Below, piece by piece: positions 2,075 to 62,745 of a stretch of 64,000 nt of DNA; positions within the stretch are counted from its first letter, which is position 1, and every line of letters starts with the position of its first letter. The position numbers and the translations under genes are program-made. Location of the stretch: contig JAKVBT010000005.1 in assembly GCA_022446905.1 (NCBI GenBank), positions 180,459-244,458 of the forward strand. Direction: 5' to 3'. The stretch comes from Phycisphaerales bacterium. Its GTDB lineage: Bacteria; Planctomycetota; Phycisphaerae; Phycisphaerales; SM1A02. The notes under the pieces are model-generated. The model was not told the origin of the DNA. It saw nothing but the letters and a program-made list of their open reading frames with translations, and did not search any database.

Positions 2075-2090
2075 GCAGTGGCCTTGTGGT

Positions 2091-2861: not shown

Positions 2862-2911
2862 GGGCGGCATGGTACTCGCCAAGAGGGTCAAAAACATGCC
2901 ACAATGTCCTC

Positions 2912-7440: not shown

Positions 7441-8009
7441 GGCGTGGACTCCAGCACTTGTGGCACTGGAACAAAGCGGCGGACTGTCGCAATGGGGCGT
7501 GCTTCATCGTCGCGGGCCTCAACCTGCACTTCGACGCCCTGAATGGCGACCGACAGTGGTGGTCCGACCGATGCGACATGGCGATCCGCATCAACATGAA
7601 GGGAGAACTGTTGATAATCCTTAGGGAGGTAGCCGAGTGCTTCAGATCGTCCGGCGCGAATCTCTCCCTGGGCTTCGAGATAGCCATCCCATCCGCCGCT
7701 CTGCTCGGGTCCAGCGATGGCGTCATACCATTGTTGACTGGTGGAGAAATCCGTTGGGTCCAGGCCTGTGACGCGGGCCATCAGCATCTCACAGGCGATC
7801 GCCGCCGAAAGCATGCGGCGTGCTTGCGTCGACTGCCCCCGGCCGGCGGTCAGGGCGGAAACCACTGCAGTGGTCACCAGCAGGAGGATGACTACCGCCA
7901 ACAGGGTCTCGAGAAGGGTCAGCGCGCGGCGACCGCGGGGGTGGACTGACGTGTCAAAGATGGCTGAATCGTGTTCAGGGGGCACGGATAGAGATCCTCG
8001 GTCTTCCAT
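7437..8009 (-). CDS. GspI-like minor pseudopilin
   Basis: First gene of the minus-strand pseudopilin operon. After about 25 hydrophilic residues comes 'RRALTLLETLLAVVILLLVTTAVVSAL', a prepilin-type helix with Glu at +5. The residue before the predicted cleavage site is Ala rather than Gly, which prepilin peptidases tolerate poorly but not never. The ORF track starts at 8081; I prefer the ATG at 8009 ('MEDRGS'), preceded by an AAGGA-like site, because the extra 24 residues show nothing and move the helix even further from the start. The protein would be 190 residues. It diverges from lptF, leaving about 140 bases for both promoters. Confidence 0.72.
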   Translation of the reverse strand: MEDRGSLSVPPEHDSAIFDTSVHPRGRRALTLLETLLAVVILLLVTTAVVSALTAGRGQSTQARRMLSAAIACEMLMARVTGLDPTDFSTSQQWYDAIAGPEQSGGWDGYLEAQGEIRAGRSEALGYLPKDYQQFSLHVDADRHVASVGPPLSVAIQGVEVQVEARDDEARPIATVRRFVPVPQVLESTP

Positions 8010-8148: not shown

Positions 8149-9786
8149 ATGCCGCTCCGGCTTTACCGGCACATGCTGGCGGAATTGCTTCGCGTGATCT
8201 TCCTCACGGCCGCCGTGTTGGTGGTCGTGATTGCATTCGGGGCCATCATCAAGCCATTGACCGGGGATGCCCCATTCTCGGCCATGCAGGCAATCAAATT
8301 CATCGCTTTATCCATGGTGCCGATGTCGCAGTACGCGGTGCCATTTGCAGCAGGCTTTGGGGCCACATTGGTGATGCACCGAATGGCTGCTGACAACGAG
8401 ATCTTGGCGATGTCGACATCAGGGCTGCGTTACATCGCAGTCTTGATGCCAGTGATGTTTCTTGGGCTGGTTCTCTCGATCATCATGATGATCATGGTGC
8501 AGGTCTATATTCCCAAGACTTACGCTGTGATGGGACGGGTGCTCGCAGGCGATGTCACGGCCATGATTCAACATGCGGTTGATCAGGGCCGGCCCATTCG
8601 TTTTGGCGATATGGAAATCTGGGCTGAGTCGATGCGCGTGACTGAACAGCCGGAAACAAGTAATGCCTCAGAGCGTATTGAACTTCGCCGCATGGTTGCT
8701 GCGCGCATGAGCAGGGATGGATCGATCGACTCAGATGTCTCGGCGGTTGGCGCTGTACTCGATCTGCATGAACGTGACGGAGTGGTATTGATTCGTATGG
8801 CCATGGACGATGCAGTGTCCTGGGATGCCGCTGGTGGTGGCCTGCGTGGATTCCCTCGGATCGAGCCCACGCATGCCATTGCCGTGCCGCTGCCCGAGCG
8901 CACCGAGCCGATGGCAATGACCTTTACCGAATTGCTCGAAGTTGATGCTTCCCCGGAACGATTCCCCGAGATAGAGCGACTTCGTCGTCAGGTTGGAGAG
9001 GCGCTACGGAAGTGGTCTGAGCGGCAGGTAGTCGCCGCGGAGTTGCAACGACAGGGTCGCGTCTTGCTGTCAAGTGCGGACCCATTGGGTAATGATTGGG
9101 AGATTGAGGCAACCGGTCTACGACATGGCACACTGATTGCGCCCAAGGGTGGTCGGGTTCGCATCATCGAGCGGGAGCGAGATGGCCGTGCCGTGCGTTC
9201 TTTCATTGCCAGGAAAGCAATTCTGGAGGTGCAGGACTCGGGTTTGGATGCAAGTCGCCGACGCTTGCTGCTTAGCCTTGACGACGTCCGTGTCCGTGAT
9301 CTTCCCGATGGCCGCCGAGACAATCAACGGGCCACGGTGGTCATTGCCAATCTTCAGCCCCTTCCACTGGATCCCGAGGTACAAGCGGAAGTCTCGGGAA
9401 ATGAAGAGGCGATGTTGGCTCGGGCAGCATCGGTTGCCGACCAGGCGCCACGTGTTAAGCGAGCGATTCGGCTCGTGGACCAAGCAACCAGCAATTTGCA
9501 CGGCCAGGTCGTGAGCCGATTGTGGCGGCGTTGGGGGGTTGCGGTGTCGGCAGGATTATTGCCGCTGCTCGGGGCCGTGCTTGCTTTAAACATGAGGCAC
9601 GCCCAGCCTTTGTCGATCTACTTGGTCGCATTCATCCCCTCGCTGTTGAACCTAGTACTGATCACTGGTGGCAGTGGGTTCATGCGACAGGGTGACGAGA
9701 TGAGCGGGTGGTTGGTGCTATGGAGTGGCAACGTGATCCTGCTGGGCATCATTGTGGCTGGGTGGCGACGGTTGGCGAGGCACTGA
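8149..9786 (+). CDS. lptF: LPS export permease, LptF/LptG (YjgP/YjgQ) family
   Basis: One of the two inner-membrane permease halves that, with the LptB ATPase, extract lipopolysaccharide from the inner membrane and push it along the Lpt bridge. The protein opens with 'LRLYRHMLAELLRVIFLTAAVLVV', a typical LptF/G first helix, then helices near residues 45-75 and 95-125, a long periplasmic jelly-roll-like region, and three C-terminal helices ('VAVSAGLLPLLGAVLALNMR', 'LSIYLVAFIPSLLNLVLITGG'). About 545 residues is longer than the usual 370, through an enlarged periplasmic region. The track start is a GTG at 8143; the ATG two codons later is equally likely. LptG follows 3 bases after the stop. Which of the pair is LptF is assigned by order only. 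Confidence 0.85.
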   Translation: MPLRLYRHMLAELLRVIFLTAAVLVVVIAFGAIIKPLTGDAPFSAMQAIKFIALSMVPMSQYAVPFAAGFGATLVMHRMAADNEILAMSTSGLRYIAVLMPVMFLGLVLSIIMMIMVQVYIPKTYAVMGRVLAGDVTAMIQHAVDQGRPIRFGDMEIWAESMRVTEQPETSNASERIELRRMVAARMSRDGSIDSDVSAVGAVLDLHERDGVVLIRMAMDDAVSWDAAGGGLRGFPRIEPTHAIAVPLPERTEPMAMTFTELLEVDASPERFPEIERLRRQVGEALRKWSERQVVAAELQRQGRVLLSSADPLGNDWEIEATGLRHGTLIAPKGGRVRIIERERDGRAVRSFIARKAILEVQDSGLDASRRRLLLSLDDVRVRDLPDGRRDNQRATVVIANLQPLPLDPEVQAEVSGNEEAMLARAASVADQAPRVKRAIRLVDQATSNLHGQVVSRLWRRWGVAVSAGLLPLLGAVLALNMRHAQPLSIYLVAFIPSLLNLVLITGGSGFMRQGDEMSGWLVLWSGNVILLGIIVAGWRRLARH

Positions 9787-9789
9787 CTC

Positions 9790-10905
9790 ATGACTCGTAT
9801 GGATCGGCACATCATGACCCGGCTTCTGCTGAACTTCGTGTTGTTATTTGCCGTGCTCTATCTCTTTGCAGCCACCATTGATGTCATTCTGAACTTGGAT
9901 GAATTCATGAAACTCGCCAAGCAGTCGCTCGGCGAGGATGCGGGCTGGCTATCTACGTTGGTGACGGCCATGGGCTACGCAGTGGGCTATCACCTGCCCC
10001 AGTTGTCCCAGTTCTATGCCTGGCTGTACGGTGCGGTGCTTGTTGGCGCCATGTGTTTCACATTGGCGCAGATGAGCCGGCACCGAGAACTCGTGGCGCT
10101 GGTGGCTTCAGGGATCAGTTTGCGACGTGTTGCAGTCCCATTTATTGCCGTCGCGGTCGCATTGGCGGGCTTGCAGGTCATCAATCAGGAATTGATTCTT
10201 CCAAATCTCGCCAGTCGCCTGCTTCGATCTCACAATACGTCTCATCAGGAGACGGTGGATGCGTTTCCAATTCGATTCACAGATGATGCAGAAGGAATGT
10301 TGGTTCAAGCATCTAGTTTTGACCCGGCGACCAAGCGTCTGATCAAACCCAGTTTCATTGAGCGCGATCAAGACGGTCGAGCCTCTCGACGTTCATGGGC
10401 GGTGTCTGCAACTTGGGATCAAGAGGAGGAGGCTTGGGTCCTCGAGAACGGTTTCTCAGTGCAGATTCACGCTGACGGAAGTGGGTCTTCGGCACCTCGG
10501 GCGGCAGCCCCAGTCAGGACGGATCTGTCACCGACCAAGTTGACGATGCGGCGACATGGGCAGATTGCCAGCATGCTGTCTTTGGGACAGATTGCAGACA
10601 TGCTTCAATGGCCTGACGCTCGAGAGGCTGCGGCCCTGCGTCGAAGTGCCATGGCTCGATTCGCCATGCTGGGGGTCAATGTGTTGGTGCTTCTGATCGC
10701 TCTGCCATTCTTTCTTGATCGCATACCTGGACAATTGCTTGTCCGATCGGTTTGGTGCGCTCTGGTAGTGCTGCCAGCCTACTTCACTGCTGCAGGCTTC
10801 ATGCTGGTGCCGCTGCCGAGTCTGAGTGTGGCTTTAGGGGTGCTCTTGCCGGTGCTGATTCTCCTTCCCGTGGGCCTGGCTCGGCTCGGGATGGTGCGCA
10901 CCTGA
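9790..10905 (+). CDS. lptG: LPS export permease, LptF/LptG family (second of pair)
   Basis: The partner of the preceding permease; the two form the heterodimeric channel of the LPS exporter. Its 371 residues are the standard length. Helices are seen near the N-terminus ('MTRLLLNFVLLFAVLYLFAA'), around 55-85 and 100-125, and three at the C-terminus ('MLGVNVLVLLIALPFF', 'WCALVVLPAYFTAAGFMLV', 'LLPVLILLPVGLARLG'), flanking a periplasmic domain of about 150 residues. It starts 3 bases after the upstream stop, so co-translation is likely. LPS-type export agrees with a diderm planctomycete. lptB and the periplasmic Lpt genes are not in the window. Confidence 0.86.
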   Translation: MTRMDRHIMTRLLLNFVLLFAVLYLFAATIDVILNLDEFMKLAKQSLGEDAGWLSTLVTAMGYAVGYHLPQLSQFYAWLYGAVLVGAMCFTLAQMSRHRELVALVASGISLRRVAVPFIAVAVALAGLQVINQELILPNLASRLLRSHNTSHQETVDAFPIRFTDDAEGMLVQASSFDPATKRLIKPSFIERDQDGRASRRSWAVSATWDQEEEAWVLENGFSVQIHADGSGSSAPRAAAPVRTDLSPTKLTMRRHGQIASMLSLGQIADMLQWPDAREAAALRRSAMARFAMLGVNVLVLLIALPFFLDRIPGQLLVRSVWCALVVLPAYFTAAGFMLVPLPSLSVALGVLLPVLILLPVGLARLGMVRT

Positions 10906-11019
10906 GCTCTGCAAGCTCACAAGCCAATACCGCGCCCAAGGCTTCTGGGGGTCTACTGGTCTGCTATTTTCGGACCTGAGAAATCATCACGCCAACGTTG
11001 GAGAGCAATGCCGTTCTGG

Positions 11020-11056
11020 GCCGAAGTGATGCTTCGGCGCGAGGTGGCCTCGCGCC
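11020..11056. repeat. two overlapping hairpins between lptG and fliW
   Basis: Two back-to-back inverted repeats share bases. The first is GCCGAAG / CTTCGGC with a 5-base loop (11020-11038). The second is GGCGCGAGG / CCTCGCGCC, 9 perfect pairs with a 3-base loop (11036-11056). Because they overlap by three bases they cannot both fold fully. No U-tract follows, so this is not a standard terminator. They sit about 110 bases before fliW and could be an attenuator, mRNA stabiliser or terminator of lptFG; the sequence does not decide. Confidence 0.45.
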
Positions 11057-11166
11057 GCGCTTCAAGATGGTGACGCAATCGACCATCTCCTGAAGTCGGG
11101 CAGGACGCCATCCGACCCTGTCGGAATGGGCCATGAGGGCCTCTGATTGCACGAGAGGGCGACGTG

Positions 11167-11628
11167 ATGCGCGTCCAGACGACTCGATTCGGAACTGTTG
11201 AGGTCAGTGATGACCGAATTCTGAATTTCCCTGCTGGTTTGCTTGGGTTCTCCAGTTTCACCAGTTTTGCGTTGCTGCAACCTGATCAGGATGCAGTCTT
11301 TTATTGGTTGCAGTCCACGGACTCTCCAGAGTTGGCCTTTGTTGTCACCGACCCCGCCCTGTGGTGTGAGGAATACGAGGCCACGGTCCGGCAGGACCAC
11401 ATGGACATCCTCGATCTCAATGGGGTCAACGATGCACGGGTGTTCGTGATCGTCAACAAGTATGACGATTCCCTCACTGCGAACCTCCAGGGACCACTGG
11501 TGGTGAATCTTCGCAATCGCCGAGGCATGCAAATCGTGCTGGCGGATCAGCGTTGGACAACGCGGAAAGAAATCGCCAAGTTGCAGCAGTCGGAATCCAC
11601 ACCACGCGCGGTTCGGGCAACGGCCTGA
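11167..11628 (+). CDS. fliW: flagellar assembly factor FliW
   Basis: FliW binds flagellin and also antagonises the RNA-binding regulator CsrA, coupling flagellin export to its translation. The protein begins 'MRVQTTRFGTVEVSDDRILNF', followed by 'PAGLLGFSSFTSFALL' and 'FYWLQSTDSPELAFVVTDP', the strongest FliW signature. The length of 153 residues is normal. The track uses a GTG at 11164; the adjacent ATG at 11167 has GAGAGGG seven bases upstream and is preferred. csrA follows 28 bases after the stop, the usual fliW-csrA pairing, which implies the cell builds flagella although no flagellin gene lies here. Confidence 0.94.
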   Translation: MRVQTTRFGTVEVSDDRILNFPAGLLGFSSFTSFALLQPDQDAVFYWLQSTDSPELAFVVTDPALWCEEYEATVRQDHMDILDLNGVNDARVFVIVNKYDDSLTANLQGPLVVNLRNRRGMQIVLADQRWTTRKEIAKLQQSESTPRAVRATA

Positions 11629-11656
11629 CACCTTCATCTGCAGAGGAGATGCCGAG

Positions 11657-11872
11657 ATGCTTGTGCTGTCACGCCGCCGCGATGAGACCATCGTCATTGG
11701 AGACGACATTCAGATCACTGTGGTCGATATTCGTGGAGATAAGGTCCGTCTGGGCATTCAAGCCCCATTCAGCGTAGGTGTGCACCGCAAAGAGTTGCGG
11801 GAAGCGATCGAGCGTGAGAATGCACAGGCCTCAACGATTCCATCGATGCCCGATCTGCAAACTGGGACCTGA
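11657..11872 (+). CDS. csrA: carbon storage regulator / translational regulator CsrA
   Basis: A 71-residue RNA-binding dimer that blocks or stabilises mRNAs at GGA-containing sites. The N-terminus 'MLVLSRRRDETIVIGDDIQITVVDI' and 'VRLGIQAP' and the C-terminal 'VHRKELREAIERENA' are diagnostic of CsrA/RsmA. A GAGGAG sequence lies close upstream ('gcagaggagatgccgag'). It follows fliW, with which it probably forms a regulatory circuit on flagellin mRNA. The C-terminal extension after the last helix is short and variable, as in the family. Confidence 0.96.
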   Translation: MLVLSRRRDETIVIGDDIQITVVDIRGDKVRLGIQAPFSVGVHRKELREAIERENAQASTIPSMPDLQTGT

Positions 11873-11885
11873 ATTTGCTGATGAT

Positions 11886-12110
11886 TCAGTTTGGGTGACA
11901 CCCACAACCGCCGCCGCCACAGCAGCCACCAGCAGGGCTACTTGGTGCAGTTTTGATGGATGCAGCATCAACTGAAAACACGCTGTGGATTCGCTCAAAA
12001 GTCCGCCCCTTGCTATCGGGATCTTCCACCGGGGCGTCGGCTTCGGCCATGGGCCGCAGGAGGCTGATCAGGGTGCCGTCTTCAATGGCTCGGTACTCGT
12101 AGAGTGGCAT
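11886..12110 (-). CDS. degenerate FmdB-like small protein with Cys-rich tail
   Basis: A 74-residue protein. The start 'MPLYEYRAIEDGTLISLLRPM' and 'GRTFERIHSVFS' match the FmdB putative zinc-ribbon family (usual start MPxYEYRC), but the family's paired CxxC zinc ligands are absent from the body. Instead all cysteines are in a C-terminal tail 'GGCCGGGGCGCHPN', with five potential thiol/imidazole ligands in twelve residues. It starts 17 bases after the stop of the transsulfuration enzyme gene and is probably in that operon. Function is unknown; a metal- or sulfur-handling role would suit the context but is inference. Confidence 0.7.
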   Translation of the reverse strand: MPLYEYRAIEDGTLISLLRPMAEADAPVEDPDSKGRTFERIHSVFSVDAASIKTAPSSPAGGCCGGGGCGCHPN

Positions 12111-12127
12111 GGTGGATTCCGTGGAGG

Positions 12128-13327
12128 CTAGATGCGATCAAGCGCTTGGGTAAGGTCATCGACAAGATCTTGTGGTGTTTCGATGCCCATGGACAAACGA
12201 ACCAAAGTATCGCTGATGCCCAGGGCGGCGCGTCTTTCTTGCGGGACAGAGGCATGGGTCATGATGGCCGGATGATTGGCCAGTGACTCAACTCCACCGA
12301 GTGACTCGGCCAATGCGAAAATCCTCAGCGACTCGAGAAAGCGGGCGCAGCCTTCGGTGTCGGCATCCAAATCAATGGTGATCATGCCACCGCCGCCGGG
12401 CTGTCCATCGAGTTGCATCTGGCGGGATGCGAGATCAAACTGAGGATGACTCTCGTGCCCTGGCCAGCACATTCGTGTGACTTTCGGGTGGGCTGCCAGC
12501 ATCGGGGCGATGATTGCAGCTGATTCACAATGCCGCCGCATGCGCACGTCAAGTGTTTTGATGCCACGAAGCACCATGTACGAATCGAATGGACCGAGCA
12601 CAGATCCGACAGAATTCTGGTGAAAGCGAAGGCGTTCCGCCAAAGGCTCATCGCCAGTGACCAGCAGGCCTGCGACCACATCGCTGTGACCACCCAGATA
12701 CTTGGTGGCAGAGTGCATAACAATATCGATGCCATGATCCATTGGCCGTTGCAGCATCGGTGTGGCAAACGTGTTGTCACAGGCCGTGATGATGCCGTGG
12801 CGTTTTCCAAGCGCTGCGATGCCATCCAGATCTGCCAGTTTCAGCATTGGGTTTGTAGGTGTTTCTACCCAAATCAAACGCGTGCGATCAGTGATGGCCG
12901 CTTCAGCAGCTGAGAGGTCTGACAAGTCTGCAATGTCAAAGTGCAGTCCTGCCGAGCGTGCGCGTACCTGCTCAAACAGTCGGTGGGTTCCTCCGTAGAG
13001 GTCATCCATTACCAGCACATGATCTCCGGATTCCAAGATGTCTAGTAAGGTCGCGATCGCAGCCAGGCCACTGGAAAATGCGAACCCCCCGCATGAGGGG
13101 TCGGTTGACTCTGCGATCTGTGATCCTTCAAGTGTGGCAATGCATCGCTCTAGCGCGTAGCGTGTTGGGTTGTGGCTTCGGGTGTACTCAAAGCCAGCGT
13201 GTTCGCCGGGCCGCCGCTGGGCATAGGTGGAACTTAGGGAAATGGGGGGCATGACCGCGCCCGTGATGGCATCAGGATGCTGCCCACCATGAATTGCGAT
13301 TGTTCCGAGGTTCTTGCTCTGGGCCAT
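12128..13327 (-). CDS. cystathionine gamma-synthase / gamma-lyase family PLP enzyme
   Basis: A cytoplasmic Cys/Met-metabolism PLP enzyme of 399 residues, the normal size. The N-terminus 'TIAIHGGQHPDAITGAVMPPI', the PLP-phosphate loop region 'YSRxxNPT'-like 'FEYTRSHNPTR', 'WVETPTNPMLKLADL' and the PLP-lysine segment 'MHSATKYLGGHSDVVAGL' are all present. The gene begins 4 bases after cbs, so the pair probably runs reverse transsulfuration, with Cbs making cystathionine from serine and homocysteine and this enzyme cleaving it to cysteine (MccB/CGL role). Sequence alone does not separate gamma-lyase from gamma-synthase (MetB); the cbs linkage favours lyase. Confidence 0.88.
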   Translation of the reverse strand: MAQSKNLGTIAIHGGQHPDAITGAVMPPISLSSTYAQRRPGEHAGFEYTRSHNPTRYALERCIATLEGSQIAESTDPSCGGFAFSSGLAAIATLLDILESGDHVLVMDDLYGGTHRLFEQVRARSAGLHFDIADLSDLSAAEAAITDRTRLIWVETPTNPMLKLADLDGIAALGKRHGIITACDNTFATPMLQRPMDHGIDIVMHSATKYLGGHSDVVAGLLVTGDEPLAERLRFHQNSVGSVLGPFDSYMVLRGIKTLDVRMRRHCESAAIIAPMLAAHPKVTRMCWPGHESHPQFDLASRQMQLDGQPGGGGMITIDLDADTEGCARFLESLRIFALAESLGGVESLANHPAIMTHASVPQERRAALGISDTLVRLSMGIETPQDLVDDLTQALDRI

Positions 13328-52208: not shown

Positions 52209-52771
52209 GTGTACGGGCCAAGTTGTTGGTGGCGGCCATCACTGCTGGCCTCTTGGCCGCGGTATCCGTGCTTGTGGGCGCGGTGATGGTGGTCCAAGCC
52301 TTTGACCTGATGTCAATCGTGGTTAAGGGGTCTACGACATTTACAGTAGAGACGACCGGTCAATGGTTGGTTGCCTCCGAAACCAAGGCGCCCATTGATG
52401 GAGTCGAGCACTCCAGTAGTTCAGTCACCAGGGATCAAGTCCTACTCCATGACCCACTTGGTCAAGAGCATGCACTGAACGTCACCCAGCAGCAGGCTTC
52501 GTACCAAATGCCCGGGCGTCAGGGCGAGGTGATCGGGAGCTTCTCCGCGGAGATGCCAGGTCAATGGCAGGTGGAAGTGCCCTCCGAGACTGCACCAGTG
52601 CTTTTGGCCTTTGGTGCGGATCCAATTGATCGAATGACCTGGTGGCTCCTTGGCAGTGGGGCTGTGGCCATTGGTCTGCTGGGGATCGCCGCTGGCTGCG
52701 GTTGGGTGGCATGGCGCCGACCAACAGGCGTACACTCATTACATGAATCGTCGCGCCCATCGGCTCGCTGA
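52205..52771 (+). CDS. two-transmembrane protein of unknown function
   Basis: A 188-residue protein with one N-terminal helix ('LLVAAITAGLLAAVSVLVGAVMVVQAF', about 6-33) and one C-terminal helix ('MTWWLLGSGAVAIGLLGIAAGCGWVAW', about 142-170), enclosing a beta-rich periplasmic domain ('MPGQWQVEVPSETAPVLLAFG'). The topology resembles small tethered domains in VWA/MoxR operons. It overlaps the DHH gene by 4 bases and the next gene by 29 bases. No family is recognised; membrane location is the only firm statement. Confidence 0.75.
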   Translation: MSVRAKLLVAAITAGLLAAVSVLVGAVMVVQAFDLMSIVVKGSTTFTVETTGQWLVASETKAPIDGVEHSSSSVTRDQVLLHDPLGQEHALNVTQQQASYQMPGRQGEVIGSFSAEMPGQWQVEVPSETAPVLLAFGADPIDRMTWWLLGSGAVAIGLLGIAAGCGWVAWRRPTGVHSLHESSRPSAR

Positions 52772-54431
52772 GCGAACGGCTCGCCGCCTGCAATGGAAAC
52801 GCACCATCAGCCATGTGCGTGGTCCGCTGTTGGTGCTGGGTGTGGTCATGCTGCTGCTGGCGATCTGGGATCGCTGGCCCGGTGGCCCCCGTGTTGATTG
52901 GTTGTTGGTCGGTTGCATCGAAGCGGTGGCGGCAGCCATGTGGATGGTCTGGTCACTCTTGCAGTCGCGTGCCACGCTCTTGGATGGGGCCATCGTTCTC
53001 GATGAAGCACTGGACACCGGTGAGGCGCTCTCAACCTCGCTATTGATTCCACCGGATGATGATGATGTCGTGTCTGCTGAGGTGCATGCAGCCGCCGACC
53101 GCCGAGCCGAGTCCATTGATTTGCGACGTGGGCCAGCAGCGGCGGTTGATGTGGCTGCCCCTGAAGGTTGGTGGTGGGGACTGTTGCTGCTTGTGCCAGC
53201 GGTGGCGCTGCTCTTCTTTGAACCATTGCCGGGGCGCGGTTCTTTGGTAGTGGAAGATCTTGATCTCACTATGGCGCGAGCGGAGGCCGAAGAAACAGCG
53301 GCGATGTTGCAGGCCCAACTTGAGCAATCGCCTGAACTCGTTGAAGACATGTCTTTGGATATGGATTGGCAACTTGCCCAGCGCAGTGATGATCCGGCGG
53401 AGATTCGCCGTGAGTCATTGCGGCAAATGACCGAGTTGTCGCGGCGTTTGAACGCATTTCAAGATAGCGCAGCTGCCCGTCGTACTGAAGCTGTGCGTCA
53501 GCGCCTGAAGCGAGCTGCCCCCGGTGAAGGCGAGGGTTTTGCTGGTGAGATCCGTCGGGCAATGGCCAGTGGTGATATGGAAGCAATGGCAGAGGCGATT
53601 GGCCAAGCGCGTCAAGTCGGGACACAGGAAGATGTCGAAGGTCTTGCTTCCTTGGCATCGGATGTGCGCGACTCTGCTAAGGACAACACTGAACTCACAG
53701 ATGCCTTAAGTGGTTCTGGGCTTGATCCGGCGCTCAGCGATTTGCCAGAGGTGCTTGCAGAAGCCATTGATGAGTCTGAACATCTTTCGATGCAACAGAA
53801 GGAGGATCTGCAACAACTGTCAGACACGCAGCAGCAGGCAGAGCAGACGATGGAAGAGCTTGCGGATGAACTTGATTCAGTGGCCGGTCAGTGCAGTGGT
53901 TCTCAGGGCGAATCAGAGGCATCTTCGAAGGCCTCCACATCGAGCCAGTCTTCGCAGAAGCAGGATGCAGCATCTTGTCCATCTGAGCAACTTGCGAGAA
54001 AGCAAATTGCGCAGCGTCAGGCAGCGCAGTGCCAGCGAGTCTGTCAGGGTGGATCGGATCCAGGCGCTCCAGTGGCGGGGCCTCAGGCCCGTGGGCCCGG
54101 GCCAGGAGGGAAACAAGCAGCGAGCCAAGAAGATCCCAATGTTGACTTTGAACAGATACGAGTGCGTCAAGGGGTTGATGAGCAGGCCAGCGTGGTGCAG
54201 TCCACAGAGGCGCGTGGTGTCATCGTCCGCGGTGATGCGACTGCTACACCCGGCCAAGCAGTACAGCAGGCCCGTCGACGCCTGGCCGAGGGTATTGATG
54301 TCAAATCAGTGCCTCGTCGCTATCGCGAAGCTGTTGCGGCCTGGTTTACAGCCATTGCACCGGAGGGCCAGCCTTTGCAGGAGCCAGATGACGGGACTGA
54401 CACATCAGCGGAGAAGGTGAGTTCACCGTGA
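52743..54431 (+). CDS. membrane-anchored coiled-coil protein, DUF4175-like position in a MoxR/VWA operon
   Basis: A 562-residue protein. Three membrane helices near residues 25-45, 50-70 and 145-165 ('GPLLVLGVVMLLLAIWDRW', 'WWWGLLLLVPAVALLFF') precede a long helical region (about 180-400). Then comes a Gln/Ser-rich low-complexity segment with five Cys ('QCSGSQGE', 'ASCPSE', 'QCQRVCQGG'), and a C-terminal 'SVPRRYREAVAAWFTAIAP' motif like that ending other operon proteins of this type. The track start at 52650 lies inside the upstream gene; the ATG at 52743 is preferred. A DUF4175-like family is my guess from gene order, not confirmed by sequence. Confidence 0.65.
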   Translation: MNRRAHRLAERTARRLQWKRTISHVRGPLLVLGVVMLLLAIWDRWPGGPRVDWLLVGCIEAVAAAMWMVWSLLQSRATLLDGAIVLDEALDTGEALSTSLLIPPDDDDVVSAEVHAAADRRAESIDLRRGPAAAVDVAAPEGWWWGLLLLVPAVALLFFEPLPGRGSLVVEDLDLTMARAEAEETAAMLQAQLEQSPELVEDMSLDMDWQLAQRSDDPAEIRRESLRQMTELSRRLNAFQDSAAARRTEAVRQRLKRAAPGEGEGFAGEIRRAMASGDMEAMAEAIGQARQVGTQEDVEGLASLASDVRDSAKDNTELTDALSGSGLDPALSDLPEVLAEAIDESEHLSMQQKEDLQQLSDTQQQAEQTMEELADELDSVAGQCSGSQGESEASSKASTSSQSSQKQDAASCPSEQLARKQIAQRQAAQCQRVCQGGSDPGAPVAGPQARGPGPGGKQAASQEDPNVDFEQIRVRQGVDEQASVVQSTEARGVIVRGDATATPGQAVQQARRRLAEGIDVKSVPRRYREAVAAWFTAIAPEGQPLQEPDDGTDTSAEKVSSP

Positions 54432-55483
54432 AGCTTGGATCTTGGTGTCGTCCCATGCTTGGATTGTCTTTGCTGTCCATACTTGTGCAGGGCTGTCAGC
54501 CATCTCCGCCTCAAGTCGTGGTCTACGTCTCCACAGATGAGCAGATCGCCCGTCCGATACTGGCTGCATTTGAGGAGCAGACTGGCATTGATGTGCTCAT
54601 GGTTGGAGACACCGAAGTGCGTAAGACCACCGGTCTGCTCGACCGCATTCGACGCGAGCGTTCAGCACCAGTGGCAGATGTGCTCTGGTCTTCAGAGGCT
54701 ATCGGGACCGCGGCGCTTGCCCGTGAGGGATTGTTGGCGCCACACCACTCCAGCATGACACACGGCTGGCCTGAAGCTTGGCGAAATGCAGATCATCTCT
54801 GGCATGCATTTTCTCCGCGGCCCCGTGTGTTGGTCTATGACCCAATGGTGTTGTCCGCTGGAGATGTTCCGGAGACTTGGACTGCGCTGGCTGATCCAAA
54901 GTGGCGTGGCAAGATCGTTCTGGCTGATCCCCGATATGGGACCACAGGGGGCCACTTGGCAGCAATGCGATGGTGGATGTCCGGCACGCCAGGACGTTGG
55001 GATCAGTGGCTCGATGCCATGCAGGCACAGGCTATGCCCATGCTCCCAGGGGGCAATGCGGCTGTGGTGGATGTTGTTCGACGTGGGCAAGCCGTCCTTG
55101 GCATGACCGATGCCGATGATGTCCATGCCGCCAATGCCGCCGGCGCAAACTTAGCGATGGTTATTCCCCGCCACAGTGAACAAGTTGGAGCGGGGGCCAT
55201 GCTCATGCCCAACACGGTGGCGATTGTGCAAGGGGCGCGGCATCCGCGTGAAGCCGCTGCACTGGCGGACTTTCTGCTTGGCGATGAAACGGCGCGACTA
55301 CTGGCGGTTTCTCATTCACGCAACGTGCCGATTTCGCCAGCAGTGGCGGATTCCTTTCCAGAATTACACGTCGATGATCCCTTGGTTCTGGACATTGATC
55401 AGATTGAACATCACTGGGCACCTGCTGTCAGTGAAGTTGTCACGCGCTGGGGCCCGCAAGCATCATCGGTGGGGAGCCCATGA
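54428..55483 (+). CDS. lipoprotein solute-binding protein of the iron/thiamine type (family 1-like)
   Basis: A 351-residue lipoprotein with signal 'GLSLLSILVQGCQP' (Cys lipobox) starting at GTG 54428, overlapping the upstream stop. The body resembles AfuA/FbpA-type binding proteins: 'VVVYVSTDEQIARPILAAFEEQTGI', 'ADVLWSSEAIGTAALAREGLL', 'LADPRYGTTGGHLAAMRWW', 'AVLGMTDADDVHAAN', 'AGAMLMPNTVAIVQGARHPREAAALADFLLGDE'. The paired Tyr that bind ferric iron in FbpA are not evident, so the ligand may differ (iron, thiamine or phosphonate-type are all possible). It overlaps the permease by 4 bases. No ATP-binding subunit is nearby. Confidence 0.82.
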   Translation: MKLGSWCRPMLGLSLLSILVQGCQPSPPQVVVYVSTDEQIARPILAAFEEQTGIDVLMVGDTEVRKTTGLLDRIRRERSAPVADVLWSSEAIGTAALAREGLLAPHHSSMTHGWPEAWRNADHLWHAFSPRPRVLVYDPMVLSAGDVPETWTALADPKWRGKIVLADPRYGTTGGHLAAMRWWMSGTPGRWDQWLDAMQAQAMPMLPGGNAAVVDVVRRGQAVLGMTDADDVHAANAAGANLAMVIPRHSEQVGAGAMLMPNTVAIVQGARHPREAAALADFLLGDETARLLAVSHSRNVPISPAVADSFPELHVDDPLVLDIDQIEHHWAPAVSEVVTRWGPQASSVGSP

Positions 55484-57903
55484 GAAAGTGGGTGCTGGCG
55501 CTTGCATGGGCGCTGATCATTGGTGTTCCTATGGTTGCCGCTGTCGTGCGACCGTGGCCCGCGGCGATGGAAAAAACTTCATCATCGAGTGTGGCATTGC
55601 ACTCGGTGCGTGATGTGGCGTTGACAACAAGCGCTTGGGCTATCGCCATGGCAGTGTTGTCGATCATGCTGGCCTTGCCCGTGGCGCGCGTACTATCAGC
55701 ATCTCAGGTACGACTGCGTGCAGTCGCTGCGCCGCTGATCATCATGGGCGCGGTCATGCCACCATGGGCACTCTATTACGCATGGTGGTCATCCTTGGAG
55801 CCGGGCACATGGCTCTTTGATGTGGCCGCTAGCGGAGGGCATGTGTCACTGCTTCGTCAGGTGTTACTCAGTTTGGCCTTATTAGGAACAACCTGGTCCA
55901 TTGCATGTTGCCTTCTTATTCCGGCAAGCATGCGTTGGTCGAACCTGCGCGATCAAGCCATGCGCCTCGATGGAGCATCGTGGTGGCATCGACAATGGGC
56001 GCGAGTGCGTGTTGAGCGGTCTGGACTTGTACTAAGCGCAATCGTAGTTGCCGCTTTGACAATGTCGTGGACGACTGCCTTCGACCTTGCTGGCATCATG
56101 ACGTTGGCCAATGAACTTCGGGCCCGCATGTCTGTGGGTGGATCAATTGCGTCCTTGATGTGGTTGGTCTGGCCACAGGTGGTTCTCGCCCTCGCAGTGG
56201 CCACTGGACTCTGGCTGTGGATCCGCCAAGCAGGTGTTTCCGCTGGAGATATGGCAAGCACGAGTTGGGCATCGAAACTACTGGGTCTGTTGCTCTGGAT
56301 GTTGATGGTGGGGCTGCCCTCTCTGCTCTTATTACTGCTTGCTGGGACTGGCGGTGAAGCGGCGGTGTGGCAGGATGTTGGAATCGGGCTGATGCACGCC
56401 ATCATGCGCGGGTTGGTCATCGCTGCGCTCGTGATGGTGATCACCTTGATTGCCAGTCGTCAGGCAGGCATTTGGATTGCCATGATGGAAGTGACTTGGG
56501 TGGCTGCAGCGCTGCTTCCAGCGCCAGTTGTTGCAGCTGGTATTGGCCACGCATGGTCGGGATCGGCAATGGTGTCTACCGCCGGGGCCTGGTTGGCAGC
56601 CATGGCCGTGCGAGCTGGAGCCGTGGGCATCATCATCGGACGCTGGCGAATGTCCATGCTGGAGTCGGCCACCGATCAACTGCGACAACTCGATGGAACT
56701 CCATGGTGGCGACCTGGCCCTGGCGGGGCTGCAGCTGCAGTGGCTGGCGGGTGTGTAGCGATGATGATGTCCATTGGTGATATCGAACTGGCCGCATCCC
56801 TGGCCCCACCAATGGACCGTCCGCCCTTGGCGGTCACACTGCTCAATGCCATTCACTATCAACGCGCAGAAACCGTGGTGGCCGCGCTGGCATTGCTCCC
56901 ACTGTGCGGCATCGCGGCAGCGGTGTTGTTGACTTCCGTTGGGCGTTCAGGAATGCGTATCGCACGAGTCGCCTGTCTGCTGGGCACGGCATGTCTGGGC
57001 GTGTCCATGATTGGATGTGATGACACTCCACGAAGTGATGCGCGACTGCTGCCTACTGATGTTGAAATCGGCATGCCTGGCCGCACGCCAGGCCGATTTG
57101 ACACGCCGCGTGGCCTTGATGTGCACGCTGGCGAGTTGTATGTCGTGGATCGCTCCTCGCGGGTGCAACGCTTGGCCGCCGATGGCAGTGTCGTGTGCTG
57201 GTGGCCAATGCCGAAGATCGACAATGGTCGGCCGGTGGGATTGACCGTACTGGGTGATGGCCGTGTGGCGGTGGCGGATACCCACGAATATCGGGTGCTG
57301 ATCTTTGATCCGTGTGGAACGTTGGTGCAACAGTTTGGACGTTACGGAACCGGTTCTGGTGAGTTTGTCTATCCCACAGATATTGCTGAGCACGCAAGCG
57401 GGGCGTTGTATGTGTCGGAATACGGTGGGCATGATCGCATCAGTGTGTTCGACCCTGATGGGACGTGGGTCAGATCAATTGGGCACCCGGGTGAAGTGGG
57501 GCAGGTGGGTGAACCAGCGCACTTTGTGCGGCCGCAGTCCATTGAGTGGTCACGCAGCAATGCCATCTTGTGGGTGGCTGACTCCGGCAATCACGTGGTG
57601 CAGGGAGTCGATCCGAATACTGGACTTACGAGGGTTCTGATTGGTGCGGGCATGCTCCGCTATCCATACGGACTTGAGGTGCTCGATGACGACACTTTGC
57701 TGGTGACCGAGTATGGGTCGCACCGATTGAGCCGATGGGCCCCGTCGGGCGAACTTCTTGGCGCATGGGGCGCGTGGGGTGACTCGCCAGGGCATACCCG
57801 TATGCCCTGGGCAGTTGCATGGGATGCGGGGAGCAACCGTGTCTACGTGCTGGATACTGGCAACGCACGCATTCTCGGGATGCCCTTGGGATCGCTGCGG
57901 TAG
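55480..57903 (+). CDS. ABC permease fused to a six-blade NHL propeller
   Basis: An 807-residue protein in one open frame. Residues about 1-490 are a double-module permease (FbpB type, roughly 12 helices) with EAA-like loops 'QAMRLDGASWWHRQ' and 'QLRQLDGTPWWRPG'. Residues 492-513 read 'MRIARVACLLGTACLGVSMIGCDD', which would be a perfect lipoprotein signal if translation restarted at its Met (56953). From about 520 to the end are six NHL blades ('LDVHAGELYVVDRSSRVQRL', 'LTVLGDGRVAVADTHEYRVLIF', 'YVSEYGGHDRISVF', 'LWVADSGNHVVQ', 'LLVTEYGSHRLSRW', 'VYVLDTGNARIL'), a complete propeller. As read, the signal becomes helix 13 and exports the propeller. Either a true fusion or a lost stop codon between two genes. 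Confidence 0.8.
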   Translation: MRKWVLALAWALIIGVPMVAAVVRPWPAAMEKTSSSSVALHSVRDVALTTSAWAIAMAVLSIMLALPVARVLSASQVRLRAVAAPLIIMGAVMPPWALYYAWWSSLEPGTWLFDVAASGGHVSLLRQVLLSLALLGTTWSIACCLLIPASMRWSNLRDQAMRLDGASWWHRQWARVRVERSGLVLSAIVVAALTMSWTTAFDLAGIMTLANELRARMSVGGSIASLMWLVWPQVVLALAVATGLWLWIRQAGVSAGDMASTSWASKLLGLLLWMLMVGLPSLLLLLLAGTGGEAAVWQDVGIGLMHAIMRGLVIAALVMVITLIASRQAGIWIAMMEVTWVAAALLPAPVVAAGIGHAWSGSAMVSTAGAWLAAMAVRAGAVGIIIGRWRMSMLESATDQLRQLDGTPWWRPGPGGAAAAVAGGCVAMMMSIGDIELAASLAPPMDRPPLAVTLLNAIHYQRAETVVAALALLPLCGIAAAVLLTSVGRSGMRIARVACLLGTACLGVSMIGCDDTPRSDARLLPTDVEIGMPGRTPGRFDTPRGLDVHAGELYVVDRSSRVQRLAADGSVVCWWPMPKIDNGRPVGLTVLGDGRVAVADTHEYRVLIFDPCGTLVQQFGRYGTGSGEFVYPTDIAEHASGALYVSEYGGHDRISVFDPDGTWVRSIGHPGEVGQVGEPAHFVRPQSIEWSRSNAILWVADSGNHVVQGVDPNTGLTRVLIGAGMLRYPYGLEVLDDDTLLVTEYGSHRLSRWAPSGELLGAWGAWGDSPGHTRMPWAVAWDAGSNRVYVLDTGNARILGMPLGSLR

Positions 57904-57914
57904 CATCGACCGTG

Positions 57915-60788
57915 ATGCAGTTTGAACACCCCGGTTGGCTGCTGCTATTGGTGCTGTTGGTGCCTGTCCTGTGGATGGCGCGTCATGCACGCCGCAGTCT
58001 CGGCCCCTATCGAGGCATCTTTGTCCCGGTGATCCGCGTGACGCTGCTCTGCGCGTTGGTGTTGGCGTTGGCCGAACCACTTGTATCGCGTGGTGGCGAC
58101 ACGATGACCGTTGCTGTGGTCATGGATCGCAGCCGCTCTGTGCCCGAGGCACTGGTCGATCAGGCGGTCGGTTGGATTCAAGATGCGTCTGCAAACCGAG
58201 TCAGTGGCGATCAACTCGCTGTCGTGCAGGTTGCGCAAAGACCACGGGTGGCGGTGATGCCATCACCTGAATCCCGGATGACACTTGATCTGGCACCAGG
58301 GCGGCGTGATGGCACCGATCTTGCTGCTGGAGTGGAACTGGCCAAAAGCATTCTTCCAGAAGGTGGGGCGCATCGCATTCTACTTGTCAGTGATGGCAAC
58401 GAAACGCGCGGTGCACTATCAGCTGCTGGAACTGTGGCTCAAGATGCGGGCATTCCCATCGACGTGCTTGCGCTGACTTATCGGCACGATCGAGAAGTCC
58501 TTGTAGAGCGGTTGGAAGTGCCTGCTCAGGTTCGGCCAGGCCAACCAGTGGATGTGCGGATCACTCTTCGGGCGCAAGGTCCTTCCAAAGGCACCCTCAC
58601 CCTACTGCGCAACGGTCGCATGATTCCCATTGAAGGTCGGGACTCCATGCCTATGCAACTGGATGCAGGGCCAACAGTGTTGACGGTGACGGTGGAGGCC
58701 AGTGATGCGCCTGCTCACCGCTATGAAGCAATCTTCGAGCCAGATGTTGGCAGTGGCGATGTCATCAGCATCAACAACCGTGCAGTTGGTTTTTCGTTTG
58801 GAGCCGAATCTGGGCGGGTCTTGATCTGCAGTCAGGGAAGTGCTGATGCGGCCATGCTTGCAGAGCTGCTCAAAGAGGCCGGCATTGAGACCACACTGTC
58901 GACTCCCGCGGTGCTCAACCGAGGAATGCCAGCGTTCATGTCCTATCAAACCATTGTGCTGGTGGATGTGCCTCGGTGGTCCATTACTGAGGCAGCCGAT
59001 GCAGAACTGGCAACGTGGGTCCGGCACGCAGGTGGCGGACTCTTGGTCGTTGGCGGCGGAGAAGCCTTCGGGGCCGGCGGTTGGATTGGTTCGGCCGTGG
59101 CAGAGGTCTTGCCGGTCACGCTGGATCCCCCAGCACAACGGCAAGTACGTCGGGGTGCACTGGTCCTGATCCTGCACAGTTGTGAGATGCCGCGGGGCAA
59201 CTATTGGGGGCGTCGCGTTGCTGAAGCCGCGATTGATTCTTTGACGAGTATGGATCTGGTTGGCATTGCAGAGTATGAGTCAAGATCAGGCAGGAGCGTG
59301 TGGGCGCTGCCACTGCAGGAGGCAGGTGATAAACGCCTTGCGCTGGATGCTGCGGCTTCCCTGACCTACGGAGACATGCCGTCCTTTAAGGACAGCATGC
59401 AGATGGCCATCGACTCACTCGATGCAGCAGATGCTGGGCAGAAACATGTGCTCGTCATTACCGACGGTGATCCAACGCCGCCAAGCCAGGCACAGTTGGA
59501 GTCATGCGTGGCGGCGCGAATTACGGTCAGCGTGGTCATGGTCGGTGGGCATGGGACACCGATGGATCGCCGCAACATGCAGGCGATTGCAGCACGGACA
59601 AATGGGCGGTTCTACAACATTTCAGATGCTTCGCTCCTGCCAAACATATTTATTCAGGAAGCGCAGTTGGTTTCTCGTTCGTTAATTCAAGAGGGCAATT
59701 TTGCACCCTTCATCGCGGTGCCAGGGGGGCCAATCGGCCAGCGACTCGAGTCGATTCCGTCAATCGGCGGCTTTGTGCTGACTGAATCACGTGATGGTCA
59801 AGCGGTGGATGCCATACGCATACCGACCAGTGAGGGTGAAGATCCATTGCTGTCGTGGTGGCAGGCTGGTCTCGGTCGTGTGATTGCTTTTACAAGTGAT
59901 CTGGGAAGTCGATGGGCCGTGCAGTGGCCTCGCTGGGAAGGGGATCCTTCATTCTGGGAGCGATTGGTCCGCTGGCTGTTTCGCTCAAGCGATGAGGGAC
60001 TGATGTCCATGCGACTGATTGAACTTGATGATGGTGAGGTTGCTGTTGAATTGGAATCGGTCGATGACAATGCCGGATTCATGAACTTTGTGGAGACGCA
60101 GGGTGTGGTGCTCGCCCCAGGTGGCGAGCACATGCCTCTTGAACTTCGACAAGTCAGTCCCGGCCGATATCGCGGTTCCTACACCATGACATCGCCTGGG
60201 GCATGGGTTACGGCAGTGCGTTGGCGTGGTGGACAGGGCGCAGATGGCAGCCCTGGTATGGGCTGGTTGCAAGGGGCCACCGTGCTGAGTTGGGCTGAGG
60301 AGGACAGTGCAGTACGCAGCAATGAGGCGATGCTGGAATCGGTGGCAAACCAGACCGGTGGGCGCGTATTTGATCTGGATGTGCCTCCAGAGCTGGCCAA
60401 TTTCTTTGATCGCGCCGGATTGACCATCAGGCAGTCCACCCGAAGCATTTGGGGGTGGCTGGCCGTGGCGTCGGCCATCCTGCTCTTGTTCGATGTCGCG
60501 GTGCGCCGCATCGTCCCCGATGCGCGAACCGCTGCAGCTCGGCGACGTCGGTCTGCCTCTGGTCCTTCGTCCGCTCATGCGACTGAAGGCCTACGTCAGG
60601 TGAAAGAGCGTGTGGCCAATCAAGCCCATTCATCGACCCCCATCGAGCAACCAGTGGCCCCCAAGCATCCCTCGACTCCTATTCAACCACACGCCCTGCG
60701 TGAGGATGCAGATGAGGATGCAGATGACACATTGTCGCGTCTGCGCGCAGCGCGGCGACGGCTGCGGCGTGAGGACGAGGAGTCATGA
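57915..60788 (+). CDS. large VWA / glutamine-amidotransferase-fold membrane protein
   Basis: A 957-residue protein of the type found in planctomycete MoxR operons. Two N-terminal helices ('HPGWLLLLVLLVPVLWMARHARR', 'VIRVTLLCALVLALAEPLV'), then a VWA domain with intact MIDAS 'VVMDRSRSVPEALV' (about 72-210), a beta-rich part, a class I amidotransferase-like fold ('RVLICSQGSADAAMLAELLKEAGIETTLS', 'GGGLLVVGGGEAFGAGGW'), a second VWA-like region ('VLILHSCEMPRGNYWGRRVAEAAIDSL', 'HVLVITDGDPTPP') with degenerate MIDAS, and a C-terminal helix ('GWLAVASAILLLFDVAV'). The track start at 57819 is in the upstream gene; ATG 57915 (or GTG 57912) is preferred. It overlaps moxR by 4 bases. Confidence 0.85.
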   Translation: MQFEHPGWLLLLVLLVPVLWMARHARRSLGPYRGIFVPVIRVTLLCALVLALAEPLVSRGGDTMTVAVVMDRSRSVPEALVDQAVGWIQDASANRVSGDQLAVVQVAQRPRVAVMPSPESRMTLDLAPGRRDGTDLAAGVELAKSILPEGGAHRILLVSDGNETRGALSAAGTVAQDAGIPIDVLALTYRHDREVLVERLEVPAQVRPGQPVDVRITLRAQGPSKGTLTLLRNGRMIPIEGRDSMPMQLDAGPTVLTVTVEASDAPAHRYEAIFEPDVGSGDVISINNRAVGFSFGAESGRVLICSQGSADAAMLAELLKEAGIETTLSTPAVLNRGMPAFMSYQTIVLVDVPRWSITEAADAELATWVRHAGGGLLVVGGGEAFGAGGWIGSAVAEVLPVTLDPPAQRQVRRGALVLILHSCEMPRGNYWGRRVAEAAIDSLTSMDLVGIAEYESRSGRSVWALPLQEAGDKRLALDAAASLTYGDMPSFKDSMQMAIDSLDAADAGQKHVLVITDGDPTPPSQAQLESCVAARITVSVVMVGGHGTPMDRRNMQAIAARTNGRFYNISDASLLPNIFIQEAQLVSRSLIQEGNFAPFIAVPGGPIGQRLESIPSIGGFVLTESRDGQAVDAIRIPTSEGEDPLLSWWQAGLGRVIAFTSDLGSRWAVQWPRWEGDPSFWERLVRWLFRSSDEGLMSMRLIELDDGEVAVELESVDDNAGFMNFVETQGVVLAPGGEHMPLELRQVSPGRYRGSYTMTSPGAWVTAVRWRGGQGADGSPGMGWLQGATVLSWAEEDSAVRSNEAMLESVANQTGGRVFDLDVPPELANFFDRAGLTIRQSTRSIWGWLAVASAILLLFDVAVRRIVPDARTAAARRRRSASGPSSAHATEGLRQVKERVANQAHSSTPIEQPVAPKHPSTPIQPHALREDADEDADDTLSRLRAARRRLRREDEES

Positions 60789-61822
60789 ATCGCGCCACTG
60801 ATTTGATTCCACCGCCTCAGGCAGATTCGCAGACAGCAGCAGACATGCGTGCGGCGGTCGATCTGCTTGTCCAAGGGGTATCGGCGATTCATGGTCAGAT
60901 TGGGCGTGCGGTCATCGGCCAGAAACGGGCGGTATCCGAGGTGCTGTGCTGTGTGCTTGCCGACGGTCATGGGCTGCTCGAAGGCGTTCCGGGAACCGGG
61001 AAAACGACCTTGGTATCTGCAGTGAGTTCCGCCTGTGGACTGGACATGGGACGCATTCAATTCACCCCAGATCTCATGCCTGCTGACATCACCGGGACCA
61101 ATGTCGTCACCGTTGATGAGTCCGGTCGTCATGGCACCGTGTTTCAGTCTGGTCCAATTTTCCATGAAATGGTCTTGGCAGATGAGATCAACCGGGCGAC
61201 GCCACGCAGTCAATCAGCCATGCTTGAGGCGATGGAGGAGCGTTCTGTCACCATCGCTGGTGAAACCCGGTCATTGCCACAGCCTTTCATCGTGCTTGCT
61301 ACTCAGAATCCCATTGAGCAGGAGGGCACCTATCGCTTGCCCGAGGCTCAGCTTGATCGTTTCATGATGAAGGTGGAAGTCCCACTGCCGCCAGCGGAGG
61401 TTGTCAAGGGCATCGTGCAGGCCACTACCGGGCAGCTCGGCGTTGAGGTCCAGTGCGCTGTGGCCCCCGGTTTTTTGCAGTCTGCATCTTCATTGTGTCA
61501 GCGTGTAGTCGTGGGGCCGCACATCGATCGTTGGATCGCGGCGCTCGTGCATGCGACTGTGACAGAACTTGGCCCGCTGGTTACCAATCCTGCGAGTCCG
61601 CGCGCAGCTTTGGCAATCCGACGCGCTGCGCAGGTGGTTGCAATGACATCGGGCCGTCTGTCACTTTCGGTCGCTGACGTGCTTCAGGTCATGCCAGCGT
61701 GTTTACGACATCGATTGTCGCCAAGTCCAGACGGGCGAGCGGAGGGATTTAGTGCGTCAGATCTGATCGAGCGTTTGCTGGATGTTGTGCCGACTCCTGC
61801 GCAGGAGATCCTGCACCGATGA
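60785..61822 (+). CDS. MoxR-family AAA+ ATPase
   Basis: A cytoplasmic chaperone-type ATPase of 345 residues thought to act on VWA proteins. Motifs: 'GRAVIGQKRAVSEVLCCVLADGHGLLEGVPGTGKTT' (Walker A), 'FHEMVLADEINRATPRSQSAMLEAMEERSVTI' (Walker B and downstream insertion), 'VLATQNPIEQEGTYRLPEAQLDRFMM' (sensor region). It overlaps both the VWA and DUF58 genes by 4 bases, the usual MoxR-DUF58-VWA module. The substrate is unknown in general; linkage predicts the VWA proteins here. Confidence 0.95.
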   Translation: MNRATDLIPPPQADSQTAADMRAAVDLLVQGVSAIHGQIGRAVIGQKRAVSEVLCCVLADGHGLLEGVPGTGKTTLVSAVSSACGLDMGRIQFTPDLMPADITGTNVVTVDESGRHGTVFQSGPIFHEMVLADEINRATPRSQSAMLEAMEERSVTIAGETRSLPQPFIVLATQNPIEQEGTYRLPEAQLDRFMMKVEVPLPPAEVVKGIVQATTGQLGVEVQCAVAPGFLQSASSLCQRVVVGPHIDRWIAALVHATVTELGPLVTNPASPRAALAIRRAAQVVAMTSGRLSLSVADVLQVMPACLRHRLSPSPDGRAEGFSASDLIERLLDVVPTPAQEILHR

Positions 61823-62745
61823 TCGACTTTGGACATGACCCAACGCTACCGCCCGAGTCGTTTGAGATGCTGCTGGGCGCCGATCTGCTGGCCGCCATGG
61901 ACCGATTGGAAATCATCTCTCGCCGTGTGCTGGCGGGAACGATGCAAGGGGAGCGTCGCAGTCGACGCAAGGGCTTCAGCATCGATTTCGCTGAGCACCG
62001 CCCCTATGTCGCAGGCGATGACCTGCGCTATGTCGACTGGAATGTCTTTGCACGCCTCGACGCTTTGTTTCTGAAGTTGTATCTCGATGAGGAAGATCTC
62101 AGTGTGGTTTTGGCCATCGATGCAAGTGCCTCCATGGACTGGGGAAATCCGTCAAAGTGGGTTTGGGCTCGCAGACTGGCAGGCGCTTTGGGAGGGGTGG
62201 CGCTGGCAGGACACCACCGAGTGACTGCCATGACATTCAATGCCGAAGGTGTGCAGGCATTGCGTGATTTGCGTGGCCGCGCCCGCACCGCAGAACTGGG
62301 TGGCTGGCTAGTCGATGCAGCCAGTCGTGGCGGCAGCGACTTGGAAGGTGCAATGCATACGATTCGGGCGACGCAACGTGGCCGAGGTGTAGTGATCCTC
62401 ATCAGCGACTTCTGGGAGCAAGCGGATCCCATCGGACCGCTGCAACAATTGGCTGGTGAACAGGACTTGCACTGTGTGCAGGTGCTGAGTCCGCAGGAAT
62501 TAGATCCTGGTGGGCACGGCCTGGTTGGCGACCTTGCTTTGGAAGATGCGGAGACTGGAGGAATCTGCGAAATCACGGTGACGCCAGCCCTGCTTCGTAT
62601 CTGTCAGGCGCGTGTTCAGGAACGAGTCCGCTTAGTTCGTGAAGCAGCGCGGCGCGCTGGTGGGTCACATGTGGCAGTTTCGACGGAGGAGTCGGTGGCC
62701 GAGGTGCTGACCCAGCAACTCCGACGGCAAGGGCTGCTGCGATGA
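61819..62745 (+). CDS. DUF58 domain protein
   Basis: A 308-residue soluble DUF58 protein with a degenerate VWA-like core: 'QGERRSRRKGFSIDFAEHRPYVAGDDLRYVDWNVFARLDALFLKLYLDEEDLSVVLAIDASASMDWG'. The family is almost always next to moxR and a VWA/BatA gene. 'GGVVILISDFWEQ'-like 'GRGVVILISDFWEQADPI' follows, the second conserved segment. It has no membrane helix, so it probably acts in the cytoplasm or as a membrane-associated partner. Overlaps of 4 bases at both ends show tight coupling with moxR and the BatA-like gene. Confidence 0.93.
   Translation: MIDFGHDPTLPPESFEMLLGADLLAAMDRLEIISRRVLAGTMQGERRSRRKGFSIDFAEHRPYVAGDDLRYVDWNVFARLDALFLKLYLDEEDLSVVLAIDASASMDWGNPSKWVWARRLAGALGGVALAGHHRVTAMTFNAEGVQALRDLRGRARTAELGGWLVDAASRGGSDLEGAMHTIRATQRGRGVVILISDFWEQADPIGPLQQLAGEQDLHCVQVLSPQELDPGGHGLVGDLALEDAETGGICEITVTPALLRICQARVQERVRLVREAARRAGGSHVAVSTEESVAEVLTQQLRRQGLLR

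Follow-up and report, generated by a model that had tools for sequence, protein, structure and literature searches.

An NHL propeller fused in frame to an ABC-type permease through a conserved internal lipobox in Planctomycetota: a probable substrate of signal peptidase II

Polytopic membrane proteins joined in one chain to proteins that work outside the cytoplasm are represented by a few described systems. The cytochrome b/c1 polyprotein FbcH of Bradyrhizobium, on which Thony-Meyer et al. are said to have reported in 1991, is reportedly cut by signal peptidase I, and it is the closest precedent known to us for the locus analysed here. GlnPQ and OpuA are permeases with fused substrate-binding proteins (SBPs). 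FbpABC and PhnSTUV, importers of the FbpB type for ferric iron and AEP, and the NHL-repeat lipoproteins of Planctomycetota are the systems to which the separate parts of the locus can be compared.

Architecture of the fused gene and its operon

The window, a stretch of 64,000 nucleotides from a Phycisphaerales contig (JAKVBT010000005.1), was analysed as a whole. On its plus strand, positions 55480-57903 form a single open frame of 807 aa, with no stop codon across 56930-56960. A sequence-only reading of this DNA had described the frame as a permease fused to an NHL propeller through a lipoprotein signal, and this description was confirmed by the open frame, by Foldseek and by the Pfam NHL model.

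Residues 1 to ~490 (55480-56949, plus strand) were assigned to a two-half ABC permease of the FbpB type on the basis of the fold, of EAA-like loops and of the point at which the permeases of split relatives stop (loci L055 and L065). Foldseek matched the N-terminal part to FbpB of Thermus (9j4r_A) with a TM-score to target of 0.73 over 513 columns, and the two-half fold was thereby found for residues 1-490. No Pfam model recognised the permease part in the window, and PF00528 did not match the permeases of relatives (0 of 30); identification as a permease therefore relies on the fold and on the neighbouring SBP gene. The EAA-like loops lie at residues ~155-186 and ~393-424. Both retain an LDG core, and loop 1 is atypical in that it is devoid of the Ala-Ala and Leu-Pro found in relatives that bear an ATPase.

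The C-terminal part (residues 535-800; 57082-57879, plus strand) is an NHL beta-propeller: Pfam NHL scored 69.7 bits on the chain (cut-off 20), a ScyF-like NCBIfam model matched below its threshold, and Foldseek superposed this part on the propellers of TRIM71 and Thin with TM-scores to target of 0.87-0.90, so that both the repeats and the propeller fold were found. Between permease and propeller stands a complete lipoprotein signal, RIARVACLLGTACLGVSMIGC, ending I-G-C513; residues 490-513 read SGMRIARVACLLGTACLGVSMIGC, that is a basic n-region and a hydrophobic core followed by IGC. The signal proper covers residues 491-512 (56950-57015, plus strand) and the codon of Cys513, the predicted site of lipidation before which LspA is predicted to cut, occupies 57016-57018 on the same strand. 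This signal is not N-terminal, as 490 residues precede it in the same frame. In the AlphaFold model of the whole chain (mean pLDDT 87.5, pTM 0.84), residues 494-509 of the signal form a helix, and pLDDT at the junction falls below 50 at residues 508-518 only.

The fused gene lies in an operon transcribed from the plus strand. Immediately upstream, with a 4-base overlap, is the gene of an FbpA/PhnS-like substrate-binding lipoprotein (54428-55483; Pfam SBP_bac_8, 63 bits), and an SBP gene precedes the fusion in most relatives. The lipobox Cys23 of the SBP is present in 27/28 sequences, and its conserved features comprise acidic and Arg residues and a TDxDDV motif. Ferric iron is not supported as its substrate: overall the protein resembles FbpA, but the tyrosine pair of ferric binders is missing and the conserved TDxDDV stands instead. 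Further upstream is a membrane/coiled protein (52650-54431; start uncertain, no strong Pfam match). The fusion is followed by genes for a vWA/GATase1-like membrane protein (57915-60788; Pfam VWA, with the start ATG at 57915 set by comparison with locus L031), a MoxR-type AAA+ ATPase (60785-61822) and a DUF58-type protein (61819-62745), the last two named from reading the sequence and not from a profile scan. Downstream sequence was long enough in 73 permease::NHL loci; among these, vWA homologues were found in 68, MoxR homologues in 67 and DUF58 homologues in 62; the upstream membrane/coiled protein had homologues in 52/73. We infer that the outer part of the system encoded by this vWA/MoxR operon consists of the SBP, the permease and the NHL lipoprotein.

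Motif and profile searches revealed no ABC ATPase gene in the window, nor in the flanks of the fusion in nearly all 40 relatives; the exception is L067, where a lone ATPase lies 3 kb from a permease fragment. Elsewhere in the genome of the window, an orphan PhnT2/PotA-type ABC ATPase (G000:C1:1843-2937; L071, L255) adjoins a ParB-like gene, is accompanied by no SBP or permease gene and is conserved in most of the order. Its distribution gives no support for a role as the cognate partner, since among 61 genomes it is present in some that have no fusion and missing from some that do. The ABC unit, which has no local ATPase, may either depend on an ATPase in trans or no longer be a pump; for the SBP, permease and NHL protein together, we favour neither a transporter powered in trans nor a motorless ligand sensor strongly.

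Spread of the permease fusion and of related fusions

A match to the fused gene was obtained in 51 of the 61 relatives examined, and the fused frame recurred in the genus, in most sampled genera of the family, in parts of the order and beyond. Scanning a genome collection added 80 loci, many of them fused, and Planctomycetota was the phylum in every record of the scan whose title gives one. After removal of near-copies, 91 non-redundant permease::NHL chains shared the architecture of the gene in the window. The suspicion that a stop codon had been removed here by sequencing or assembly error has nothing in its favour except the unusual architecture; it is refuted by a frame that stays continuous across the junction in dozens of independently assembled genomes with identities of 28-46%, and we give it next to no probability. 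The permease::NHL fusion is real and widespread, and the merger of a permease gene with an NHL lipoprotein gene, as originally suggested, is borne out.

Split forms also occur. Permease and NHL are encoded separately, without an adjacent ATPase gene, in L055, L065, L200, L224, L225 and L234; the separate NHL proteins mostly carry a lipoprotein signal of their own, and the permease stops before the 13th segment. The sequence-only reading had held that a stop at the junction in close relatives would count against the fusion. Such relatives exist (G011, G031 and a few others), but they are sporadic and the NHL of G031 (L055) falls within the fused clade on the tree, so that the fusion cannot be dismissed as an artefact on account of these split forms. 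The tree requires at least 7 changes, with a direction that is fixed only for L055; they may reflect one permease::NHL fusion that later split repeatedly or several separate fusion events. In this locus, ~4 kb of opposite-strand genes (8977-12767) lie between the permease and NHL genes of an otherwise co-linear operon. In L070 (G006; 1014-3469), the permease is read in two overlapping frames, probably by an assembly frameshift. The very long frames of L230, L227, L149, L145 and L135 were discarded as over-extended frames and are not fusions.

In other Planctomycetota, SBP, permease, ABC ATPase and NHL lipoprotein are separate genes in this order (L135, L136, L137 and L138), and the partial contig L145 carries permease, ATPase and NHL. 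A second fusion, in which the ABC ATPase is joined to the NHL propeller through the lipoprotein signal, was found in genera of the families coded f32, f33, f17 and f84, a group that is perhaps Pirellulaceae-like. These chains are in frame with an intact lipobox and conserved ATPase catalytic motifs (L151:4970-6907, L235:3772-5643 and 14 more). On the tree they form one clade (support 99) apart from the permease fusions, and a single clade for both types was rejected (AU p 4e-5). The ATPase::NHL fusion arose independently of the permease::NHL fusion.

A third arrangement was seen once: in L148 (G129; 5706-7559), MiaA (tRNA dimethylallyltransferase) is in frame with an NHL lipoprotein whose lipobox reads LSC. 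In G163, the sole other genome of that family, a single in-frame TAA separates MiaA and NHL, and the lone fused case could be a sequencing error.

Conservation and proposed processing of the internal lipobox

In published lipoboxes, the Cys at +1 is invariant and -1 is occupied by G, A or S (PMC8048626). A pattern scan found a hydrophobic stretch with [GAS]-Cys at the junction in 91/91 non-redundant permease::NHL chains and a [GAS]-Cys lipobox in 13/13 non-redundant ATPase::NHL chains; ahead of the hydrophobic core, fused chains of both types have ~3 Lys/Arg and few Asp/Glu. When 36 fused permease chains were aligned, Cys513 was invariant (36/36), the next-best cysteine reached 25/35 and no further invariant cysteine was present anywhere in the chain, while most helix columns neighbouring Cys513 had entropies of 2-3 bits. 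In 14 aligned ATPase::NHL chains, the Gly and the Cys of the lipobox were both invariant. The background for the pattern, taken from the 500 residues that precede the junction in these same permeases, is 1.26 per 500 residues with ~12 helices, or ~0.1 per helix. Against a lipoprotein signal, position -3 is Leu or Val in no more than 37/91 fused chains, although separate NHL proteins of the family are similar in this respect (15/30). Among NHL proteins that this cassette encodes as separate genes, those of L238, L239, L251, L253 and L254 are attached to the membrane through a plain anchor that lacks the lipobox Cys, and the propeller as such can thus do without it.

From these sequence patterns we consider it fairly probable that the chain is a two-product precursor, lipidated by Lgt and cut by LspA before Cys513 to give a permease and an NHL lipoprotein. 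The FbpB-type permease part would insert with 12 helices, so that its C-terminal end stays in the cytoplasm; a 13th segment, provided by the former lipoprotein signal, would then span the membrane and export the propeller, whose periplasmic location, already proposed from the sequence, agrees with the predicted topology. Once Cys513 is lipidated and the chain cut ahead of it, the permease would be left with one spare helix at its C-terminus, and the other product would be an ordinary membrane-anchored NHL lipoprotein, which may work with the SBP, the permease and the vWA/MoxR proteins of the operon. Such cleavage would restore the two proteins of split relatives. Because a cut chain would leave an ordinary permease and NHL lipoprotein, the fusion would be nearly neutral, and this would explain the interchange of one-gene and two-gene forms in the family. 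Genes for both LspA and Lgt were found in this genome. The same searches returned no match for LspA or Lgt in G030, which has the fusion with an intact box, or in G002 and G006; these are draft genomes and one Lgt query had no positive control. It also speaks against cleavage that no documented LspA substrate preceded by a long N-terminal part is known to us, nor was one found in the literature searched, which also held nothing on a permease-NHL fusion, an internal lipobox or a lipoprotein version of FbcH-like processing.

The chain might instead stay uncut, with the 13th segment as a plain or lipidated helix that keeps the propeller tethered next to the permease, where it would act in sensing or gating, much as the sequence-only reading had imagined. 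The single continuous frame, stable across a large clade, and the pTM of 0.84 for the whole chain speak for such a chimera. However, a plain helix offers no reason for [GAS]-Cys in every one of the 91 chains: a tethering helix needs neither the Cys nor a small residue before it, and cleavage is therefore favoured over a tether. The recurrence of split forms also argues against an uncut chimera, as does the AlphaFold model of the ATPase::NHL chain, in which the domains are good but pTM is 0.53 and the linker lies below 50, and a function for an uncut chimera of MiaA and NHL is difficult to imagine. Permease, ATPase and perhaps MiaA are unrelated N-terminal partners, and all that they have in common is the kept signal. 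A helix 13 that simply tethers a gate is thus unsupported, and we regard the uncut chimera as unlikely.

Two products could also be obtained from a translation start just ahead of the lipoprotein signal, the read-through chain being a by-product. In the gene of the window, residue 492 is encoded by an in-frame ATG, and for permease::NHL genes the frequency of ATG is somewhat raised in the signal region, at 53% against 38% in other parts of these genes. This enrichment is not seen in ATPase::NHL genes (23% against 26%), the ATG of the window has no usable Shine-Dalgarno spacing ahead of it, and the frame would have no need to remain open. Moreover, 10/91 fused genes (one of them, L063, mis-anchored) have no ATG, GTG or TTG 12-34 codons before the Cys. 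Internal initiation does not cover all fused genes, was rejected as a general explanation and appears to us quite improbable. Retention of the Cys for a disulfide or a metal site would fit a residue predicted to face the periplasm, but the chain holds no second invariant cysteine, and an always small -1 residue behind a basic n-region is what lipoprotein signals have; we attach very little probability to it. Two proteins cut at the kept internal lipobox are, on the sequence evidence, the most likely working form.

Extending this to the other fusions, we are just inclined to believe that signal peptidase II processes polyproteins in Planctomycetota, freeing C-terminal lipoproteins from a permease, an ABC ATPase and perhaps MiaA at an internal lipobox, and that such fusions are tolerated and kept. 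If so, Lgt and LspA would accept hundreds of residues ahead of the signal, even where these form a polytopic membrane protein or a cytoplasmic ATPase, and operon genes would have a route to fuse with their functions preserved. As signal predictors examine N-termini, such lipoproteins risk being miscalled in annotation. Within a vWA/MoxR operon, the locus moreover reveals an ABC-like unit that is conserved and has no motor ATPase encoded nearby.

Comparison with known systems

As in FbpABC and PhnSTUV, an SBP is encoded beside a two-half permease of the FbpB fold, and the ATPase of the separate-gene relatives is of the PhnT2/PotA/FbpC type. The fusion differs from these importers by the absence of an adjacent ATPase, by its atypical first EAA loop, by a permease that is negative in Pfam and by an SBP with TDxDDV and no ferric tyrosine pair. 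With the NHL-repeat lipoproteins of Planctomycetota, the locus shares the propeller, the lipobox and the place before vWA/MoxR genes, whereas here the propeller is synthesised at the C-terminus of a longer polypeptide. In GlnPQ and OpuA, too, an ABC permease is covalently linked to an extracytoplasmic domain; there, that domain is the receptor and is not attached through a lipobox, whereas here the SBP is separate. The likeness to FbcH lies in a polytopic membrane protein and a periplasm-facing protein, each known separately, carried in one frame with an intact internal signal between them. The difference lies in the enzyme: signal peptidase I acts on FbcH, whereas the lipobox found here predicts cleavage through Lgt and LspA.
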